Positions 3,365 to 55,714 of a DNA stretch of 64,000 nucleotides are shown in pieces. Position 1 is the first letter of the stretch. Each line of letters starts with the position of its first letter. The stretch is from contig CACYVC010000005.1 in NCBI GenBank assembly GCA_902777835.1, positions 85,305 through 149,304 of the forward strand, written 5' to 3'. The notes beneath the pieces were generated by a model. That model was not told where the DNA came from. It saw only the letters and a list, made by a program, of their open reading frames with translations, and ran no database searches. Position numbers and translations under genes: made by a program. Source of the DNA: an uncultured Bacteroidales bacterium (GTDB lineage Bacteria; Bacteroidota; Bacteroidia; Bacteroidales; Muribaculaceae).

Positions 3365-4549
3365 TTACTCTACAAAGAGTACCAACCCTTTCAAGTACTC
3401 GCCTTCGGGGTGGTAGATGTTGATTGGGTGGTCGGCGGGCTGGGTGAGCTGGTGCAGGATGCGCACTTTGCGGCGGCTCTGGGCTGCTGCGGTGAAGACA
3501 GCCACGCGGAACTGCTCTTTGCTCACCGCCTGCGAACATGAGAAAGTAAACAGCACTCCCCCACTCTGTATCTTACTCAACGCCTTGGCATTTAGACGGC
3601 GGTAGCCAATGAGTGCGTTCTTGAGGGCACTCTTGTGCTTAGCAAATGCTGGTGGGTCGAGGATAATAAGGTCGTAAGCGTCACGCTCCATGCGGTCGAG
3701 GTAATCGAAGGCATCCTCAGCAAATGCTTTGTGGCGCTCGTCACCAGGGTAGTTAAGCTCCACGTTGCGCTCTGTGAGCATCACAGCCTTACCCGAACTG
3801 TCAACTGAGTGAACCAATTTGGCGCCACCACGCATGGCATAGAACGAAAAACCTCCAGTGTAGCAGAACATATTGAGCACACGGCGGTCACGGCAGTAGC
3901 GCTCCACTAAGGCGCGGTTCTCGCGCTGGTCAACGAAGAAGCCAGTCTTCTGCCCACGCAGCCAATCCACATGGAACTTAAGGCTGTTCTCCATCGCCAC
4001 ATCGGTGTCGAACTCGCCAATGAGGTACTGGTTCTCAGGATCAAGATGGGCCTTGTAGGGCAACGTTGTCTCGCTCTTGTAATATACATTAATTATATTA
4101 GCGCCAGGCAGGTCAACAAGCGCCTGCGCGATAACCTTGCGGGCAAAATGCATTCCCGGCGAGTGGGCCTGAATAACTGCTGTGGAACCATATACGTCAA
4201 CCACAAGTCCTGGCAGGAAGTCGCCCTCACCATGCACGAGGCGGAACGAGTTGTTGTCGGGGCGCATGAGTCCAAGTGCCTGGCGCACATGCCACGCCTG
4301 CTCAAGGCGGTCGCGATAGAATGCCTCGTCGATAGCGGTGTCACCCCACGCGAGGATGCGCACCATGATGCTGCCCACCTGGTAATGGCCGTTGCCAATG
4401 TGAGTGCCGTCACTACCGAAGACCGACACCAAGTCGCCTTCCTCTATCGTCTCGTCGGCATGGGCTATAGCCCCCGAGAACACCCAAGGATGAAACCGCT
4501 TGAGCGACTCCTCCTTGCCACGCCGCAGGGTTATCTTTTTGTAGTTCAT
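3365..4549 (-). CDS. rlmI: Class I rRNA methyltransferase, RlmI type (23S rRNA m5C)
   Basis: 394 residues. The N-terminal PUA domain covers about residues 2-75 and a Rossmann-fold SAM methyltransferase follows. The SAM loop is VLNMFCYTGGFSFYAM (224-239). The catalytic region is LDPPAFAKHKS (297-307), and the nucleophile is probably Cys338 in TFSCSQ. Members of this family (RlmI/YccW) methylate C5 of a 23S rRNA cytosine, position 1962 in E. coli; the exact target here is inferred. The start codon lies inside a heptamer-repeat tract. The gene follows rseP by 126 nt on the same strand, and that gap is filled by three repeat families. Confidence 0.88.
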   Translation of the reverse strand: MNYKKITLRRGKEESLKRFHPWVFSGAIAHADETIEEGDLVSVFGSDGTHIGNGHYQVGSIMVRILAWGDTAIDEAFYRDRLEQAWHVRQALGLMRPDNNSFRLVHGEGDFLPGLVVDVYGSTAVIQAHSPGMHFARKVIAQALVDLPGANIINVYYKSETTLPYKAHLDPENQYLIGEFDTDVAMENSLKFHVDWLRGQKTGFFVDQRENRALVERYCRDRRVLNMFCYTGGFSFYAMRGGAKLVHSVDSSGKAVMLTERNVELNYPGDERHKAFAEDAFDYLDRMERDAYDLIILDPPAFAKHKSALKNALIGYRRLNAKALSKIQSGGVLFTFSCSQAVSKEQFRVAVFTAAAQSRRKVRILHQLTQPADHPINIYHPEGEYLKGLVLFVE

Positions 4550-4584
4550 AGTTTATAGTTCACAGTTCATAGTTTTCAGTTTTT
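4543..4584. repeat. Degenerate heptamer tract, AGTTCAT family
   Basis: Six consecutive 7-nt units in plus orientation: AGTTCAT, AGTTTAT, AGTTCAC, AGTTCAT, AGTTTTC, AGTTTTT. The rlmI start codon (4547-4549) is inside the first unit, so the tract supplies the ATG. Upstream it abuts the TCTAGA nonamer tract. Confidence 0.85.
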
Positions 4585-4619
4585 CTAGATATTCTAGAAG
4601 TTCTAGAGGATCTAGATTA
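4584..4619. repeat. Nonamer tract, TCTAGA family
   Basis: Four consecutive 9-nt units, each starting TCTAGA: TCTAGATAT, TCTAGAAGT, TCTAGAGGA, TCTAGATTA. The same family recurs at 19279-19323. The hexamer core is palindromic, so the tract reads alike on both strands. Confidence 0.85.
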
Positions 4620-4645
4620 TTGCGCTAAAGGCACACTTTGTCCTC

Positions 4646-4680
4646 ACTTAACACTTAAAACTTTACACTTATCACTTACT
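4646..4680. repeat. Degenerate heptamer tract, GTNNTAA family (minus sense), covers rseP stop
   Basis: Five 7-nt units in plus orientation: ACTTAAC, ACTTAAA, ACTTTAC, ACTTATC, ACTTACT. These read as GTNNTAA-like units on the coding strand. The rseP stop codon (4676-4678) lies inside the tract. Confidence 0.85.
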
Positions 4681-6196
4681 TAACGATAAATCGGTAGAAA
4701 TCGTTTCCTAGTGCGAAGACCATTAGAAGCACAATGAAATAGAATCCTATCCTCAAGCAGATATCCATTGTCTTCTCACTGGGTTTCCATCCGGTAATCA
4801 TCTCAATGAGCAGGAAGAGGACATATCCGCCATCCAGGATTGGGATTGGCAGTATGTTCATAAACGCCAATATTATTGACAGATAGGCTGTAAGGAACCA
4901 GAAGAAATACCAGTTGATTTCTCCGCCAAACAAGCTGCCTATAGCGCCAAAACTACCTAAGCTCTTCACGCCTTCTTTTGAGAAGACATACTTAAACATG
5001 GTGATGTAGTCAACCAACATGTTCCAGCCTTTTTGGAATCCTAATTTGACAGAAGGCAAGAAACCATATTCAACATATTTTACCTCAAAAATATCGAAGG
5101 CTTGCGATACGCCTATGCCAATCTTTCCGGCATCATCAATAGCAACTTTAGCGCTATCAATTTTCCCGTCACGCTCATAAGAAATTATTGACGTGGTGTT
5201 TTTGTTCTTTGCCATCAAGTCGATGAAATCCCTATAGTCAAGAGCTTTAACGCCATTAATGCTCAACAACTTATCACCAGCTTTAAGACCAGCCTTCGCT
5301 GCTCCATCGCCATTAGACACGCTCTTGATAACCATTGGTACTCTATAGTCCATAAAGAGTTGAGGGTGCTCCTTCTTCTGCTCTGCTTCGGCCTCTTTAT
5401 TTGCCTCCATCAGGTAACCATCAGGAATATTGATAGTGACTGTGTCTTTATGGTCACGGAGCACCTTCACCTGCTTGGCATCAAGCAACGCCTGCAAGTT
5501 GCCCACAGGGAGTTCTTTGCCATCGGCACTGAGTGGGATATCACCATCGCGGAAACCGATCTTCTCGGCGCATGGGCTAAAAATCATTCCATCAGTTGCA
5601 TTCTCATATGGGATATATTTGTCGCCATAGTGGTAAGTCATTCCAGCAAAGATAATGCAAGCCGCCAAGAAATTAAACAGCACGCCGCCAATCATAACGA
5701 GGAGGCGCTGCCATGCTGGCCTCGAACGGAACTCCCATGACTTAGGCTTCTCGCTCAACTCCTTAGCGCTAGTGGTCTCGTCAACCATACCTGCGATAGA
5801 GCAATATCCTCCCAGGGGCACCCAACCAACGCCATACACTGTGTCTCGCCAAGTGGATTTTTCGTCCCCACTCTCTGCACCTTCCTCGGCAACAGGTTCA
5901 GCAACTTTCTCGAGAGCGTTATCATCTGTTTTCTCGTCAGACTTCTCACTTTCGTCACTTGGATTCTTCACGAAGAATCCCAATTTGTGATTCTTAGGAT
6001 CCCATCTCACCAAAGAGAACTTAGGATTAAAGAAGAGGTAAAACTTATCTACTCGCATCTTGAACAATCGGGCAAAAGAGTAATGACCGAGTTCATGAAC
6101 AAAAACGAGTAAGCTAAGTGATAGTATTAACTGTAAAGCATTTATCCAAAATGAAGCGGAACCTAATGTCTCAAATAAATTGTGAAAGATATTCAT
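4676..6196 (-). CDS. rseP: RIP metalloprotease RseP (site-2 protease, M50)
   Basis: 506 residues, an integral membrane zinc protease that cleaves membrane-anchored anti-sigma factors or signal peptides within the bilayer. The zinc motif HELGH is at residues 34-38 inside the first membrane segment. The second signature is NILPIPILDGG near residue 445, with C-terminal membrane segments. A PDZ domain (AGLKAGDKLLSING) lies in the middle. After HELGH comes an unusual acidic, lysine-rich insert of about 40 residues (around 77-115) that probably forms a flexible extra-membrane loop. It lies downstream of dxr with a 36-nt gap; the same dxr-rseP neighbourhood is common in bacteria. The stop codon sits inside a repeat tract. 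Confidence 0.93.
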   Translation of the reverse strand: MNIFHNLFETLGSASFWINALQLILSLSLLVFVHELGHYSFARLFKMRVDKFYLFFNPKFSLVRWDPKNHKLGFFVKNPSDESEKSDEKTDDNALEKVAEPVAEEGAESGDEKSTWRDTVYGVGWVPLGGYCSIAGMVDETTSAKELSEKPKSWEFRSRPAWQRLLVMIGGVLFNFLAACIIFAGMTYHYGDKYIPYENATDGMIFSPCAEKIGFRDGDIPLSADGKELPVGNLQALLDAKQVKVLRDHKDTVTINIPDGYLMEANKEAEAEQKKEHPQLFMDYRVPMVIKSVSNGDGAAKAGLKAGDKLLSINGVKALDYRDFIDLMAKNKNTTSIISYERDGKIDSAKVAIDDAGKIGIGVSQAFDIFEVKYVEYGFLPSVKLGFQKGWNMLVDYITMFKYVFSKEGVKSLGSFGAIGSLFGGEINWYFFWFLTAYLSIILAFMNILPIPILDGGYVLFLLIEMITGWKPSEKTMDICLRIGFYFIVLLMVFALGNDFYRFIVK

Positions 6197-7396: not shown

Positions 7397-7417
7397 AAAA
7401 TATGCTTTAAAAACCTA

Positions 7418-7425
7418 CAAAGTTA
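7418..7425 (-). promoter_or_regulatory. -7 promoter element upstream of dxr
   Basis: TAACTTTG on the minus strand matches the Bacteroidota -7 consensus TAnnTTTG and lies 22 nt upstream of the GTG start. Confidence 0.5.
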
Positions 7426-7492
7426 AGCATTTTCGTTCTCTCAGCGAAACGTATAGACATTTTTAACGATTTCAAACAAATTTTGCAAAGAA

Positions 7493-7525
7493 AAAGTCCA
7501 ACATCTCAAATGATGTCGGACTTTA
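7493..7525 (-). terminator. Intrinsic terminator of the dockerin/SUMF1 gene
   Basis: On the minus strand AAAGTCCGACATC pairs with GATGTTGGACTTT across a short loop and is followed by a T-rich run. It lies 25 nt past the stop of the dockerin/SUMF1 gene and upstream of the dxr promoter. Confidence 0.8.
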
Positions 7526-7526
7526 A

Positions 7527-7547
7527 TTATGCATTAATCAATTATCA
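7527..7547. repeat. TTATGCA-type heptamers after the dockerin/SUMF1 gene
   Basis: TTATGCA, TTAATCA and ATTATCA follow each other at 7-nt spacing just beyond the stop codon region and before the terminator. They are degenerate members of the TTATGCA family. Confidence 0.5.
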
Positions 7548-7549
7548 TA

Positions 7550-14788: not shown

Positions 14789-14809
14789 AGATGTAAGATG
14801 GAAGATGTA
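14789..14809. repeat. Degenerate heptamer tract, AGATGTA family
   Basis: Three 7-nt units, AGATGTA, AGATGGA and AGATGTA, in the divergent gap between argS and the transporter gene. Confidence 0.7.
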
Positions 14810-14862
14810 AGAAATCAGTTTCCTATTATCAGTTTTTTTGTGATTTTGAATATTTGACCGAA

Positions 14863-16656: not shown

Positions 16657-16696
16657 AACAAGGAGGTAAGTTAATGAATTTAAACACTAAATGTCA

Positions 16697-16724
16697 TTAT
16701 GCATTTTGCATTATGAATTATGCA
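16697..16724. repeat. Degenerate heptamer tract, TTATGCA family
   Basis: Four 7-nt units: TTATGCA, TTTTGCA, TTATGAA, TTATGCA. They fill the gap between the transporter gene and marC and end 8 nt before the marC start. Confidence 0.8.
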
Positions 16725-16732
16725 TTAGATAA

Positions 16733-17302
16733 ATGAATTTCTCTCAGATATTAAGTTCGGCATTGGTGCTGCTCAGCATCATTGATATTGTGGGCTCAGT
16801 GCCCATTATAATGGATTTGCGCTCTAAAGGTCGCGAAGTAAATGCTTGGAAAGCAACAATATACTCTGCCATCCTAATGGTGGGATTCTATTACGGCGGC
16901 TACTGGATTCTCGAGATTTTCAACTGCAACATCCAGTCGTTTGCCGCAGCTGGCGGCTTCTTGATGTTCCTAATGGCGCTTGAGATGATTCTCGATGTGG
17001 AAATCTTCAAGAACAACACTCCAGGCGGCGGGGCAACACTTGTCCCCATGGTGTTCCCGCTCATTGCAGGGGCTGGAGTACTCACCACACTAATCTCACT
17101 CAAGGCTATGTATGCCGACGTGAACATACTCATTGGCTTAGCGATCAATATGGTGTGGGTGTTTGTCGTCATTAAGTCCACCGACAAGATACAAAAGTTC
17201 CTTGGCGAAGGAGGCATCTTCTTCCTGCGTAAGTTCTTCGGCATCATCTTACTTGCCATGTCGGTAAAGATGATGAGCGAAAACCTTGCTAAATTGTTCT
17301 AA
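16733..17302 (+). CDS. MarC family integral membrane protein
   Basis: 189 residues with about six membrane segments, matching the UPF0056/MarC family length and its start (inner-membrane helix ILSSALVLLSIIDIVGSVPI). The motif PLIAGAGVLTTLISL in the middle is typical. Family function is not established; an early link to multiple antibiotic resistance was not upheld. It lies downstream of the AspT/YidE gene and 113 nt before porV. Confidence 0.88.
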   Translation: MNFSQILSSALVLLSIIDIVGSVPIIMDLRSKGREVNAWKATIYSAILMVGFYYGGYWILEIFNCNIQSFAAAGGFLMFLMALEMILDVEIFKNNTPGGGATLVPMVFPLIAGAGVLTTLISLKAMYADVNILIGLAINMVWVFVVIKSTDKIQKFLGEGGIFFLRKFFGIILLAMSVKMMSENLAKLF

Positions 17303-18606: not shown

Positions 18607-18735
18607 TTTTCAAAAGTTAAATTTTGATATAAGAAAAAGGAAGAGAAAGTTGCAAAAGCACCTTTTTGTTCCTTTTTCTCATTCTTATAGAAGAGATTGC
18701 AATGCTTGAAATCATTGCACTGTCTTCGATAAACA

Positions 18736-18795
18736 ACGATAAACGACCAACGATAAACGATAAACGATAAACGACCAACGATAAACGATAAACGA
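18736..18795. repeat. Heptamer tract, ACGATAA family, abutting the ispF start
   Basis: Eight 7-nt units: ACGATAA, ACGACCA, ACGATAA three times, ACGACCA, ACGATAA twice, then a partial ACGA directly before the ispF ATG. The CCA variants recur after one and then three ACGATAA units, which gives a higher-order pattern. Confidence 0.9.
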
Positions 18796-18797
18796 AT

Positions 18798-19274
18798 ATG
18801 CGCATAGGATACGGCTTCGACGTTCACCGCCTGGTAGAAGGCAGAGAGTTATGGATTGGTGGCGTGAAAATCGACCACGACAAGGGACTGCTGGGACATA
18901 GCGATGCCGATGTGGCAATTCATGCCCTTTGCGACGCGCTGCTCGGTGCAGCAGCTCTGCGCGACATAGGCTATCACTTCCCCGACAGCGACCCACAATA
19001 CAAGGGAATCGACAGTCGCAAACTCCTGCGTGAAGTGATGCGTCTGCTAGGCGAGAAAGGCTACACGCTGGGCAACTGCGATATCACCATCTGCGCCGAG
19101 CAGCCCAAGATGAACCCGCACATCCCAGCCATGCAGCAGCAGCTTGCAGAGTGCATGGACTGCGACCCATCACAGGTGTCCATCAAAGCCACTACCACCG
19201 AGCGCCTAGGCTACACCGGCCGTGGCGAAGGCATAGCCGCCCACGCCGTAGCAATTATAATGCACAAAGCATGA
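18798..19274 (+). CDS. ispF: 2-C-methyl-D-erythritol 2,4-cyclodiphosphate synthase
   Basis: 158 residues, standard for IspF. It cyclises CDP-methylerythritol 2-phosphate to MEcPP with release of CMP in the MEP pathway. The zinc site DVH is at the N-terminus (GYGFDVHRL) and the conserved [19 protein letters not shown] follows. The C-terminal motif is [20 protein letters not shown]. It is a trimer in known structures. It sits 3' of porV behind a heptamer-repeat tract that runs right up to the ATG, and converges on glpB. Confidence 0.96.
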
Positions 19275-22334: not shown

Positions 22335-22466
22335 AAAATGCTCACGCTCGCAAGGTATTGAGCAAACTCATGCTTTTGACTCGCTTAACCGCATTTTTAA
22401 ATAAAATGCTCACGCTCGCAAGGTATTGAGCAAGCTCATACTTTTGACTCGCTTAACCGCATTTTT
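22335..22466. repeat. Two 64-bp direct repeats, two mismatches
   Basis: Copies at 22335-22398 and 22403-22466 begin AAAATGCTCACGCTCGCAAG and end GCATTTTT. They differ only at AAACTCATG versus AAGCTCATA. They are separated by four bases, giving a 68-bp period. Function unknown. Confidence 0.85.
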
Positions 22467-24899: not shown

Positions 24900-26210
24900 A
24901 TGAATATTCTTATCGTTGGAACAGGATATGCCGGGCTTGTTACTGGAGCCTGTTTTGCCGACCTCGGCGTAAATGTAACTTGTGTCGATTCTGATGCGCG
25001 AAAAATCAACTTGCTGCTCTATGGTGGTCTGCCCATCTACGAGCAAGGCCTTGAAGACATGGTAAAACGCTCGGTAGCAGCCCGAAGGCTCAACTTCACG
25101 AGCAATTTTGCCAACGTGTTCGACAATGTAGATTATGTGTTCTGTGCTGTTGACACACCACCTGCCGAGAACGGTGGCACCGACCTCACACAAGTGAAAA
25201 ACACAGCAATACAGTTTGCCCAAAACATTAACAACTATGCCGTGTTTATCATCAAATCGACAGTGCCTTTGGGCACTTCCAAAAAAATCAAGCAGCTCAT
25301 AAAGGAGATTCTCGACGAGCGACACGTAGATTTCGATTTCGATGTGGTATCTAACCCCGATTTCCTCACCGAAGGCAACGCCATCAAGAACTTCATGAAA
25401 CCCGACCGCATCATCCTCGGCGTGGATAACGAGCGTTCACGCAAAGCGATGGATACACTCTATCACCCACTAAAGTTCAAGTATTTCCCTGTAATATATA
25501 CCGACTCGACAACTGCCGAGATGATTAAATATGCAGCCACCTCAATGCTCGCCACTCGAGTGAGCTTTATGAACGAAATCGCCAATCTGTGCGAGATTGT
25601 GGGAGCCGACATCAACACTGTGCGCCACGGCGTGGGTACCGACAGCCGCATAGGCTCTAAATACATCTACCCTGGTTGCGGATACGGCGGCACACTATTT
25701 CCTAAAGACATCAACGACCTTATCAATATTGCCGAGGAAAACGGATATTCAATGGAGGTGCTTAAAGCCGTTGACAAGGTCAATACCAAGCAGAAACATC
25801 GACTCTTTGAGAAGTTCCGCGACTTTTACGGAGGCGATATCAAGGGCAAGACAGTAGCATTGTGGGGACTCTCATTCAAGCCCAACACCGATGACATCCG
25901 CGAGTCGCCATCAATCACCACCATCGATCTACTCCTGCAGGCGGGCTGCCACGTGCGCGTCTATGACCCAGTGGCCATGAACGCCATCAAGTTCCGCTGG
26001 AACGACATTTACTGCGCTCTCGACATCTACGATGCCGTCAATAAGGCCGACGCCGTGATGCTCGTCACCGAGTGGCGACAGTTCCGCGTGCCATCATGGG
26101 AAAAGGTGAAAGAATCAATGAACACCCCCCTTGTCATCGACGGCCGCAACATCTACGACGGCAAAGAACTTGAAGAAAAGGGATTCAGCTACTTTTGCAT
26201 TGGCAAATAA
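24900..26210 (+). CDS. UDP-glucose 6-dehydrogenase homologue lacking catalytic Cys and Asn
   Basis: 436 residues with all three domains of the UDP-glucose/GDP-mannose dehydrogenase family: NAD-binding VGTGYAGLVTGACFADLG (6-23), the central helix region and the C-terminal UDP-binding domain (SFKPNTDDIRESPS). Ugd oxidises UDP-glucose to UDP-glucuronate using a catalytic Cys in GGSCFPKD. Here residues 263-270 read GGTLFPKD, so Cys is Leu266. The usual Asn in KYAANA reads Thr214 (KYAATS), and the usual VGTP reads VDTP (84-87). Lys210, Glu158 and Asp270 remain. The base calls are unambiguous. It is either a divergent dehydrogenase or an inactive paralogue. It has its own promoter and is followed at its stop codon by a heptamer tract. 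Confidence 0.85.
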   Translation: MNILIVGTGYAGLVTGACFADLGVNVTCVDSDARKINLLLYGGLPIYEQGLEDMVKRSVAARRLNFTSNFANVFDNVDYVFCAVDTPPAENGGTDLTQVKNTAIQFAQNINNYAVFIIKSTVPLGTSKKIKQLIKEILDERHVDFDFDVVSNPDFLTEGNAIKNFMKPDRIILGVDNERSRKAMDTLYHPLKFKYFPVIYTDSTTAEMIKYAATSMLATRVSFMNEIANLCEIVGADINTVRHGVGTDSRIGSKYIYPGCGYGGTLFPKDINDLINIAEENGYSMEVLKAVDKVNTKQKHRLFEKFRDFYGGDIKGKTVALWGLSFKPNTDDIRESPSITTIDLLLQAGCHVRVYDPVAMNAIKFRWNDIYCALDIYDAVNKADAVMLVTEWRQFRVPSWEKVKESMNTPLVIDGRNIYDGKELEEKGFSYFCIGK

Positions 26211-26245
26211 GTGTTAAGTGTTAAGTAGTAAGTGTTAAGTGTTAA
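26211..26245. repeat. Heptamer tract, GTNNTAA family, directly after the Ugd-like stop codon
   Basis: Five 7-nt units: GTGTTAA, GTGTTAA, GTAGTAA, GTGTTAA, GTGTTAA, starting at the base after the stop codon. Because 7 is not a multiple of 3, the TAA falls in all three frames within three units. Confidence 0.9.
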
Positions 26246-26270
26246 GTCATTTTTCTTTGAAAAATAAACA

Positions 26271-26650
26271 ATGACTCGGTCTTTTATGGAACAAGATGTC
26301 AAGCGTATTAAATCAAGAGATTTTGCACTTAGGATAATTAAATTATATCGCTTTCTAGTAGATAAAATAAAAAAGCTTTTGAGATAGGCAAACAGATTTT
26401 ACGGTGTGGAACATCTATAGGTGCAAATGTTGCAGAAGCTGAATGTTCTGAAAGTGATAGTGACTTTGTCCATAAACTCACAATTGCCCTTAAAGAAGCT
26501 AATGAAACAGAGTTTTGGTTGGATTTGTTATGGAGGTCAGACCTGATATCAACACAACAATATGAATCTCTTAATGAAGATTGCGTCGAATTAATAAAGA
26601 TATTAAAGTCTATTATTAACTCAATGAAGCAAAAGAAGAAAAAGCCTTAA
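26271..26650 (+). pseudogene. Frameshifted four-helix bundle protein (23S rRNA intervening-sequence family)
   Basis: The ATG frame gives EQDVKRIKSRDFALRIIKLY then stops at about 26385. The family sequence resumes one frame over (FEIGKQILRCGTSIGANVAE, then ALKEANETEFWLDLL and LIKILKSIIN) and ends at TAA 26648-26650. A one-base change in the A-rich run around 26365-26372 would join the two into about 126 residues, the usual length. The family (PF05635) folds as a pentamer-forming four-helix bundle and is linked to rRNA intervening sequences and other loci; function is unknown. It may be a pseudogene or a homopolymer sequencing error. Confidence 0.8.
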
Positions 26651-26667
26651 TTTTTAAGGCTTTTTTA
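26642..26667. terminator. Intrinsic terminator overlapping the four-helix-bundle stop codon
   Basis: AGCCTTAA and TTAAGGCT form a perfect 8-bp stem with a three-base loop, followed by TTTTTT. The stem contains the TAA stop. It directly precedes a heptamer tract. Confidence 0.85.
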
Positions 26668-26722
26668 CTTAACACTTTACACTTAAAACTTAAAACTTTA
26701 CACTTAACACTTAACACTTAAA
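26667..26722. repeat. Long heptamer tract, GTNNTAA family (minus sense), encodes the pseudouridine synthase C-terminus
   Basis: Eight 7-nt units in plus orientation: ACTTAAC, ACTTTAC, ACTTAAA twice, ACTTTAC, ACTTAAC twice, ACTTAAA. The last 19 bases lie inside the RluA-type gene, supplying its stop codon and residues LSVKC. Confidence 0.9.
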
Positions 26723-28520: not shown

Positions 28521-28529
28521 GGCGCAGCC

Positions 28530-28557
28530 ACTTAACACTTAAAACTTGAAACTTAAA
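28530..28557. repeat. Heptamer tract, GTNNTAA family, downstream of the TPR gene
   Basis: Four 7-nt units in plus orientation: ACTTAAC, ACTTAAA, ACTTGAA, ACTTAAA, 11 nt past the TPR gene stop codon. Confidence 0.75.
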
Positions 28558-28567
28558 AATTTAACTC

Positions 28568-31008: not shown

Positions 31009-31056
31009 TTTATTCTTCTAAAGAAGGAGTTAAACTATATCACTTACGTCCTCTAC

Positions 31057-31091
31057 ACTTATCACTTAATACTTACTACTTAACACTTAAT
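31057..31091. repeat. Heptamer tract, GTNNTAA family, encodes the RsmE C-terminus
   Basis: Five 7-nt units in plus orientation: ACTTATC, ACTTAAT, ACTTACT, ACTTAAC, ACTTAAT. The rsmE stop codon (31080-31082) and its last residues IKC lie inside. Confidence 0.88.
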
Positions 31092-31803: not shown

Positions 31804-31838
31804 AATGCATAATGCTCAATGCATAATGCACAATTATA
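31804..31838. repeat. Heptamer tract, TTATGCA family (minus sense), between permease gene and rsmE
   Basis: Five 7-nt units in plus orientation: AATGCAT, AATGCTC, AATGCAT, AATGCAC, AATTATA. Confidence 0.8.
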
Positions 31839-33808: not shown

Positions 33809-33843
33809 ACTTAAAACTTAATACTTACTACTTAACACTTAAA
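33809..33843. repeat. Heptamer tract, GTNNTAA family, covering the mnmA stop codon
   Basis: Five 7-nt units in plus orientation: ACTTAAA, ACTTAAT, ACTTACT, ACTTAAC, ACTTAAA. The mnmA stop (33839-33841) is in the last unit. The unit order closely matches the tracts at 31057 and 34937. Confidence 0.88.
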
Positions 33844-34936: not shown

Positions 34937-34971
34937 ACTTAAAACTTAACACTTACTACTTAACACTTAGT
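34937..34971. repeat. Heptamer tract, GTNNTAA family, between the DoxX gene and mnmA
   Basis: Five 7-nt units in plus orientation: ACTTAAA, ACTTAAC, ACTTACT, ACTTAAC, ACTTAGT. It ends two bases before the DoxX stop codon. Confidence 0.88.
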
Positions 34972-40535: not shown

Positions 40536-40572
40536 GCGCTTCACTGTTCCCAAATCGGGGCGCGAAGCACCT
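40536..40572. repeat. Imperfect inverted repeat GAGGCGCTTC / GAAGCACCTC
   Basis: Ten-base arms with one mismatch enclose about 17 nt. Without a clear T-run on either strand it is not a confident terminator. It lies between the pseudouridine synthase gene and asnS. Confidence 0.4.
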
Positions 40573-40600
40573 CACTAATCACTAATCTCTAATCCCAAAT
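40573..40600. repeat. Heptamer tract, CACTAAT family
   Basis: Four 7-nt units: CACTAAT, CACTAAT, CTCTAAT, CCCAAAT. On the coding strand they read ATTAGTG-like. It lies between asnS and the pseudouridine synthase gene. Confidence 0.75.
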
Positions 40601-40628
40601 CTCATTTTTTGTTCAAAAAACGAATGAA

Positions 40629-55607: not shown

Positions 55608-55613
55608 TATTTT

Positions 55614-55648
55614 AGTTCATAGTTAAGAGTTCATAGTTTATAGTTGTG
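55614..55648. repeat. Heptamer tract, AGTTCAT family, upstream of mnmE
   Basis: Five 7-nt units: AGTTCAT, AGTTAAG, AGTTCAT, AGTTTAT, AGTTGTG, starting seven bases from the mnmE start codon. Confidence 0.8.
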
Positions 55649-55678
55649 AGCCTCGACCTCCAAACATGATGAGAAGAA

Positions 55679-55713
55679 TTATGCATTGTGAATTATGCAT
55701 TGTGCATTGATTA
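55679..55713. repeat. Heptamer tract, TTATGCA family, downstream of the first nuclease gene
   Basis: Five 7-nt units: TTATGCA, TTGTGAA, TTATGCA, TTGTGCA, TTGATTA, ending two bases from the nuclease stop codon. Two repeat families thus share the mnmE-nuclease gap. Confidence 0.85.
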
Positions 55714-55714
55714 A

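Follow-up and report, generated by a model that had tools for sequence, protein, structure and literature searches.

Sequence analysis of a 64,000-nt stretch of the genome of an uncultured Bacteroidales bacterium of the family Muribaculaceae (GenBank assembly GCA_902777835.1, contig CACYVC010000005.1, positions 85,305 to 149,304; the whole stretch is referred to as the window) revealed tandem arrays of 7-nt words in its intergenic gaps. They are genome- and genus-wide bacterial heptamer arrays, of the kind described as short tandemly repeated repetitive (STRR) sequences or heptameric simple sequence repeats (SSRs), built from many related words and anchored on the edges of open reading frames (ORFs). 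In nearly all arrays next to an ORF edge, one strand (the outward strand) has its 5′ end at the ORF and points away from it, irrespective of gene direction; starts and stops behave in the same way. The original prediction, made from the letters of the window, had noticed the repeats; the polarity and the anchoring on ORF edges were absent from it.

Abundance of heptamer arrays

Arrays were identified with a lag-match detector (+1 for a match, −1.5 for a mismatch, score threshold 12; a lower threshold of 9 was used for the comparison of syntenic gaps). ORFs were called with a longest-ORF script, not a gene finder, and start codons are therefore uncertain. Within the window, 14 period-7 arrays were found in 43 gaps of at least 20 nt, together with one array of period 9 and none of periods 4-6, 8 and 10-13. 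The sample of the genome under study (G000; other G labels denote relatives in the sample) comprises 464 kb, i.e. the window and 20 stretches of 20 kb, with 415 kb called as coding sequence. It contains 64 period-7 arrays, which occupy 54 of 297 gaps, and 0 to 3 arrays at each other period from 4 to 13 (none at period 6 and one at period 8). No period-7 array was found in the called coding sequence of this sample.

The original prediction had named shuffled intergenic sequence as a control, and period-7 arrays were absent from all 50 dinucleotide shuffles of the window gaps and from five shuffles of the G000 sample. The heptamer arrays are real and far beyond chance. Like bacterial heptamer SSR and STRR arrays, they consist of several tandem 7-nt units, are intergenic and are dispersed over the genome.

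Outward polarity at ORF edges

The discovery set comprised 164 arrays lying between ORFs of at least 100 aa, of which 106 were "near", i.e. had one ORF within 20 nt and the other at a distance greater by at least 20 nt. Assignment of a class by vote required at least two look-alikes, a condition that 91 of the near arrays satisfied, and 90 of these 91 were oriented outward. Pairs of look-alike arrays, which are not independent, were concordant rather than discordant by 771 to 21 over all species (G000, 125 to 0; G017, 26 to 0; G139, 56 to 4), with similar concordance for start-start, start-stop and stop-stop pairs.

A further 106 arrays (64 from the distant species G147 and 42 from G000) made up the later loci. 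Sixty-three of these were near one ORF and clear, and 51 of the 63 could be classed by vote. The nearer ORF was predicted correctly from the word alone for 29/29 arrays in G000 and 21/22 in G147 (50/51 together). Twenty-five later arrays, counted over all positions, remained without a class, and of four that were near but ambiguous three obey the rule. Since the later loci were picked by the word patterns TAAGTG, CACTTAA and TAGTT, they test orientation relative to ORFs and not abundance. One 20-kb stretch of G147 belonged to the discovery pool, and some of the later G000 arrays may be orthologs of discovery arrays of G139, G099 and G108, so neither the two sets nor the pairs are fully independent.

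A looser count, based on position and core word, gave 96 outward, 1 inward and 9 unassigned arrays among the 106 of the discovery set, and 48 outward, 4 inward and 11 unassigned among the 63 later ones. By the same count (the orientation-assigned table is fixed by the assignment method and was not used), the starts and stops with outward words in the discovery set numbered, respectively, 16 and 16 for AGTT (which also had 1 inward array), 8 and 17 for TAAGT, 4 and 14 for AATGC, 6 and 2 for CGTT, and 1 and 7 for AATTC.

The two ends of an array differ in their position. When discovery and later loci were pooled (270 arrays, 221 orientable and 49 not), the 5′ end lay within 20 nt of an ORF in 160/221 arrays and the 3′ end in 24/221, with a uniform expectation of about 74 each; in 22 of the 24 arrays with a near 3′ end, the 5′ end is equally close to an ORF. 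In gaps of at least 180 nt a near 5′ end was found in 45/87 arrays and a near 3′ end in 1/87 (expected 12.5).

The rate of arrays per border in the G000 sample was 21/177 for co-directional stops, 19/177 for co-directional starts, 9/70 for convergent stops and 0/86 for divergent starts. As divergent starts rarely carry arrays, we infer that promoter-bearing borders are avoided. Border base composition was considered as the cause of the polarity and rejected, because the outward strand of array-free gaps shows no keto bias at stops (keto fraction 0.467); at starts there is a slight one (0.543).

Arrays of the window

The features distinguished in the window are listed in Table 1. In the gap between the rlmI-like and rseP-like genes (4550-4675), the original prediction had described six AGTTCAT-type heptamers, four TCTAGA nonamers and five GTNNTAA-type heptamers covering nearly the whole of it. 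Both the sequence and Tandem Repeats Finder (TRF) revealed the three tracts, comprising six AGTTCAT-type units (with approximate limits), the TCTAGA sites and, on the minus (i.e. gene) strand, a 34-nt tract of nearly five units of the TAAGTGT type. The extent was slightly overstated, as about 98 of the 126 nt are covered and 28 nt (4617-4644) are free of repeats. When this gene pair is followed across species, arrays lie between the genes in some and there is almost no gap in others.

Table 1. Coordinates of heptamer arrays and associated features in the window
Feature	Position	Strand	Remarks
rlmI-like gene	3365..4549	-	PUA-like and SAM methyltransferase domains
Period-7 array, outward strand TAGTTCA/TAGTTTA	4542..4583	+	overlaps rlmI-like gene start, points away from rlmI-like gene
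Four TCTAGA palindromes, spacing exactly 9 nt	4584..4616		sites at 4584, 4593, 4602 and 4611
Period-7 array, outward strand TAAGTGA/TAAGTGT	4645..4678	-	from rseP-like stop codon, points away from rseP-like gene
rseP-like gene	4676..6196	-	M50 peptidase with PDZ
AGATGTA array	14789..14812		divergent gap, distant from both ORFs
AATGCAT-family array	16695..16727	-	outward from start of gene at 16733
TCGTTTA-family array	18735..18795	-	outward from start of gene at 18798; ortholog in G099, remnant in G139
TAAGTGT array	26208..26247	+	begins at stop codon of gene ending 26210
TAAGTGT array	26667..26718	-	outward from right-hand gene's stop
TAAGTTT array	28529..28564	-	outward from stop
TAAGTGT array	31056..31090	-	outward from stop
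AATGCAT array	31804..31834	+	outward, upstream of left-hand gene's start; seen at lower threshold 9
TAAGTGT array	33809..33842	-	outward from stop
TAAGTGT array	34937..34969	-	outward from stop
TCACTAA/GATTAGT array	40572..40604		similar stretch in G099 gap
TAGTTCA array	55613..55645	+	outward from left-hand gene's start
AATGCAC array	55678..55709	-	outward from right-hand gene's stop; orthologous arrays in G099 and G108

An ORF of the 23S_rRNA_IVP family is located between two inverted TAAGTGT arrays of the window (26211-26703), and a copy is present in G139 (L075:12861-13235). The G139 copy is intact (Pfam, 1.7e-27) and the frame of the window copy is interrupted. By eye, the insert is nearly identical in the window and G139 and absent in G099; it is possibly a recent transfer into an array-flanked gap. 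A different repeat, a 68-bp unit in two tandem copies, was found at 22335-22466. Pieces of this unit match at least roughly 30 dispersed places in G139, G099 and G108, i.e. it represents a dispersed repeat family.

Words, in-register drift and other repeats

The 64 arrays of the G000 sample comprise 30 canonical majority words, the commonest of which are AACACTT (10 arrays), AACTATG (7), AATGCAC/T (6) and AACTGAT (4), and the related species G017 favours AATTATG (11/32) and AACAACT (4/32). Seven of the eight word families predicted for the window were seen there as arrays; the eighth, CTGATAA, falls below the threshold in the window and forms arrays elsewhere in G000 (the four of AACTGAT).

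The word can change in register along a single array. At L014:7401-7455 TCCACGT is followed by AACGATA and then by AACTATG with the period kept, and further arrays of this type were found at L024:18689 and L016:18676. Within arrays the variable columns cluster beside a constant core of 4 to 6 bases; where there are two variable columns (v) among constant ones (C), they are mostly adjacent or one apart (CCCCCvv 25, CCCCvCv 14, CCCvCCv 1). Judged by eye, GGTGGAA, GAGAGTT and GAACGAG words tend to sit further out from the ORF, and a palindrome is present within only some words (e.g. ATGCAT in AATGCAT).

Words are common to many loci of one genome and are shared patchily with distant species. The pattern TAACTGATAACTGATAACT, a TAACTGA-type word, was found in 9/61 genomes of the genus, and CACTTAANACTTAANACTTAA in 8/61. 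Site counts for CACTTAANACTTAANACTTAA were 39 (G000), 40 (the distant G147) and 15 (G139). The control for CACTTAANACTTAANACTTAA was the same pattern read backwards, which is itself a heptamer word; it gave no sites in G000, G147 and G139 but matched 6 other genomes of the 61. Triplicate TAGTTNA was detected in 10/99 genomes of the family sample.

TCTAGA at 9-nt spacing constitutes another repeat system, which is present in some of the species belonging to the genus. Close neighbour pairs of this hexamer have a spacing of 9 in 12/16 cases in the G000 sample, 29/34 in G139 and 1/3 in G017. No close pair was found in the G099 sample, and TCTAGA is wholly absent from 367 kb of other genera of the family. 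Loci with the 9-nt spacing are 4584-4616 of the window, L003, L075-L077, L088-L094 (G139) and L098 (G119). Beyond their distal end, arrays are often succeeded by other repeats. A single motif marking this end was sought across 120 flanks and none was found; the commonest hexamers, counted without a background test, were TGCGCC (11), GCGCCT (10), TCTAGA (9) and GACAAG (9). Some gaps appear layered by eye, in the order ORF, heptamers, other repeats, heptamers, ORF. In one case (L024:17240-17341) a single array in stop-side orientation spans an entire 102-nt gap from stop to start codon, so that the next gene has a T-rich heptamer leader.

Distribution and turnover among relatives

The original prediction had pointed to relatives as a further check, and related species do carry heptamer arrays. 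Period-7 arrays are present in G000, G017, G139, G099 and G108, and 12/20 further species of the genus (20 kb each) contain them, 33 in total. In other genera of the family they were found in 3/20 cases, five arrays in all (up to 20 kb each, one only 387 bases). The arrays are thus frequent in the genus and rare in the other genera sampled, and the feature marks the genus. Arrays of periods 8 and 9 also occur in some species (9 and 4, respectively, in G017; 6 and 8 in G139).

Syntenic gaps were compared with up to three relatives. Of the 35 gaps, 19 have an array in one or more of the species compared; in 12 of these, two or more species carry one, and in 3 every available species does. The number of array bases predicts gap length between species (slope 1.43, r 0.72, 71 non-independent species pairs), and the arrays are therefore insertions. 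Within a word family, orthologous arrays resemble one another more closely than non-orthologous ones do (0.887 for 12 pairs vs 0.828 for 57 pairs, p 0.004), and 7 of the 12 orthologous pairs, compared between species with one genome per species, differ by no more than 3 nt in length. In gap 55608-55714 both the copy number and a variant third unit are kept between G000 and G108. At gap 7397-7549, inspection by eye revealed that G139 has about 12 successive AATGCAC-type units, flanked by the stop codon on one side and by a segment that appears conserved in all four species on the other; the remaining three species keep fragments of the AATGCAC word. The arrays are slow, inherited sequences and are not hypervariable at the between-species scale.

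Comparison with known heptamer repeats

The STRR sequences of heterocystous cyanobacteria are heptamer arrays of several words, and the present arrays are alike in this respect. The likeness to cyanobacterial heptamers drawn in the original prediction is apt, as the period and the intergenic location are the same and TGATAAC and the AACTGAT/TAACTGA word of the present arrays are rotations of each other. In plasmid A of Trichormus variabilis (250 of 366 kb) we identified eight intergenic period-7 arrays, against at most one for each of the other periods between 4 and 13; eight are too few for polarity to be judged. A counterpart in Bacteroidales, the order that includes Paludibacter propionicigenes, was thought to be undescribed, which proved only partly right. 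The text excerpted from MacGregor 2015 (PMC4679880) names Beggiatoaceae, cyanobacteria and five Bacteroidetes, including P. propionicigenes, as carriers of TAACTGA heptamer repeats, and mentions other heptamers in gaps of Gramella and Aequorivita. Among the matches listed, none describes many-word, genus-wide heptamer arrays, and no account of heptamer arrays in Bacteroidales was found beyond MacGregor 2015 and Rehm 2015 (PMC4692102; likewise in excerpt).

According to the same excerpts of MacGregor 2015 (PMC4679880, Table 1), 147/170 BOGUAY TAACTGA sets are directed toward the start codon. TAACTGA facing a start codon is TCAGTTA when read outward, i.e. the AGTT class of the present arrays. 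One Flexibacter litoralis set is reversed directly after a stop, and among 22 intergenic sets of Microcystis 8 are reversed relative to the start, 6 forward and 8 between stops; this mixed orientation counts against a universal polarity rule. The TAACTGA word is common to the BOGUAY system and this genus, where it is in the minority (AACTGAT, 4/64 arrays). BOGUAY is described as having one word, with related heptamers rarely or never in tandem, whereas 30 majority words were distinguished here.

In Rehm 2015 (PMC4692102), GGGAATC-type arrays of Xanthomonas campestris and X. axonopodis and GGGGA(C/T)T arrays of Nostoc PCC 7120 are reported to lie almost exclusively nearer the 5′ neighbouring ORF, whatever its orientation, at an average distance of 28 nt vs 160 nt to the downstream ORF. 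The excerpted text also reports close convergent pairs of repeat sites in Xanthomonas, discusses G-quadruplexes and mentions Calothrix heptanucleotides. Period 7, degenerate columns, a mostly intergenic location and outward polarity are shared with the GGGAATC-type arrays. That study dealt with one G-rich word type, whereas the present arrays have many words, no GGG quadruplex potential, in-register drift and turnover between species. G-quadruplexes were accordingly rejected as an explanation, with four GGG runs in 0/221 arrays and four GG runs in 16/221. What is new relative to these excerpts is the vocabulary of many words and the generalisation of the outward polarity; polarity itself was already reported for a G-rich word (PMC4692102).

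Possible origin of the arrays

The step of seven, the insertion of arrays, the anchoring of one end on ORF edges, the outward polarity, the in-register drift and the inheritance with turnover are directly visible in the compared sequences. The mechanism we favour, tentatively and in the knowledge that it may well be wrong, is outward accretion of units in steps of seven from ORF edges. Arrays would arise in short promoter-free gaps, such as operon spacers and convergent gaps. On the outward strand, DNA would be added mainly at the 3′ side in steps of seven bases, and each new unit would be an imperfect copy of the preceding one, causing words to drift in register. Other repeats would accumulate beyond the distal array end. 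ORFs would form the inner boundary, because a 7-nt step inside an ORF shifts the frame. As the outward strand is the 3′-ended strand at a break or single-strand gap between genes, the simplest reading is 3′-end extension, which might proceed by slippage-like or template-resetting synthesis during repair. Over evolutionary time the arrays would be inherited, expanding or decaying. An enzyme of the general kind that 3′-end extension needs is the telomerase-like reverse transcriptase DRT10, described in an excerpted report (PMC12632851) as a bacterial enzyme making tandem-repeat DNA by template resetting; a chromosomal role here is only an analogy.

Accretion is favoured by the dominance of period 7, the lack of arrays in the called coding sequence of the G000 sample, the outward orientation, the asymmetry of the two array ends, the lengthening of gaps by arrays, the in-register change of words, the outer position of GGTGGAA, GAGAGTT and GAACGAG words, the array rates at the different border types and the closer likeness of orthologous arrays. 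Several observations weigh against accretion from ORF edges. Arrays more than 20 nt from ORFs ignore the nearest ORF (47 to 32 pairs in the discovery set; 13/26 arrays in the later loci), the simple word count found four inward arrays among the later loci, and divergent starts with arrays do exist (4/106 in the discovery set, from G017, G108 and G122, and four in the later loci including one of G000). No gradient of unit quality or decay was found along arrays. Arrays within called coding sequence were detected in other species (seven in G017 and one each in G139 and G134). Gap 7397-7549 was seeded from the ORF side only, and a break model would allow either end. Neutral drift does not predict clustered variable columns around a constant core of 4-6 bases, and local copying alone does not predict identical words in distant species. 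Finally, no candidate enzyme tracks the arrays in 24 genomes, which are incomplete. RVT_1 was found in 10/24 of them (divergent reverse transcriptases may escape detection) and was not found in the array-bearing, likewise incomplete genomes G128, G119 and G122, Y1 transposases (Y1_Tnp) were found in 20/24, including genera without arrays in the samples, and Ku in 0/24. Reverse transcriptase, Y1 transposase and Ku were set aside as candidate array makers, since in these incomplete genomes their presence does not track arrays.

The clustered variable columns and the conserved variant unit leave room for selection on the core word. The arrays could be selected signals of RNA leaving an ORF, in sense past a stop and in antisense past a start, where a protein reading a core of 4-6 bases every 7 bases would stop, process or mark the transcript. 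The ORF-relative polarity, the same at both gene ends, agrees with such signals, as do variable columns that are adjacent or one apart around a constant core and the preservation of copy number and variant third unit in gap 55608-55714. We nevertheless consider them unlikely, because about nine in ten borders lack an array (49/510 have one), the rseP-rlmI pair carries arrays in some species and has almost no gap in others, and the cores are many and different. An equally unlikely source is plain replication slippage that favours 7-nt steps, an idea of Mrazek 2007 cited in MacGregor 2015, and that has no polarity of its own, with the outward pattern imposed by selection or composition. That arrays lengthen the gap, decay and re-expand is consistent with slippage, and among long SSRs heptamers are described as the class that predominates in most genomes, a finding of Mrazek 2007 quoted together with a seven-base polymerase contact in the excerpts of MacGregor 2015 (PMC4679880). 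Composition would help at starts, given their slight keto bias, but not at stops. Moreover, the keto-poor AATGC word was outward in every case of the discovery set (4 starts, 14 stops) and split 1 to 1 in the later loci, the inward case being start-side. In 18/59 start-side arrays the outward orientation introduces a sense-strand ATG ahead of the gene, an arrangement that selection on initiation would be expected to work against.

Within three units, a heptamer that contains a stop codon puts a stop into each of the three frames, and arrays might in this way insulate neighbouring ORFs as a translational stop tape. The sense strand is indeed stopped in all frames in 72/101 stop-side arrays (a null from column permutation has a mean of 56.1 and a maximum of 70) and 47/59 start-side arrays (null 25.9, max 37), but the antisense strand is raised too (66/101, null 40.8, and 39/59, null 30.9), words such as GTGGAAG hold no stop, period 7 is not required and the polarity is unexplained. 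We regard the three-frame stop excess on both strands as a minor clue and insulation as improbable. The same low credence can be given to a dispersing element (RAYT/REP-like, reverse-transcribed or horizontally moved) that places arrays beside ORFs. It would account for words common to many loci of one genome and patchily to distant species, and G000 does have one reverse transcriptase; against it, neither Y1 transposases nor reverse transcriptases track arrays, and words drift in register. The G000 reverse transcriptase is encoded at G000:C9:62426-63007 (L149), and its best PADLOC model is RT_UG17 (DRT10 class), with a weak match (79 bits) that covers part of the profile. Chi sites as known have lengths of 5-8 nt and are rich in G and T. 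Chi-like polar sites, for which the outward strand would be the one read by a RecBCD/AddAB-type enzyme entering the gene from a gap break and which would shield genes from resection, fit the orientation at both gene ends and the G+T content of the outward strand (0.622 for near arrays); the many unrelated words and the few arrays at divergent starts make them very improbable.

Two further ideas were rejected. Cyclisation of mRNA through matched 5′ and 3′ ends is not supported, as 0/6 genes with arrays at both ends share a word family, nor is a hairpin across the gap, as facing arrays belong to the same family in 4/15 gaps, similar to random G000 pairs (about 30%). A plasmid search with a repeat query gave no match, although low-complexity masking of such queries is possible.

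Outward accretion from ORF edges could be given a broader form, in which a directional 7-nt repeat-adding activity with relaxed sequence choice extends intergenic DNA outward from ORF edges on the 3′-ended strand, and the same process underlies the arrays of Bacteroidota, Cyanobacteria, Xanthomonas and Beggiatoaceae, whether G-quadruplex-capable or not. In this general form the proposal is doubtful.

Significance

Although heptamer arrays are on record from several phyla, there is no agreement on what causes them. The outward polarity of arrays that lack GGG runs, at both gene ends and in a distant phylum, shifts the question away from quadruplexes. The key question becomes which process or selection sees the edge of an ORF but not the direction of the gene. 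A genus with many species and differing dominant words constitutes a natural experiment on the origin and replacement of words.

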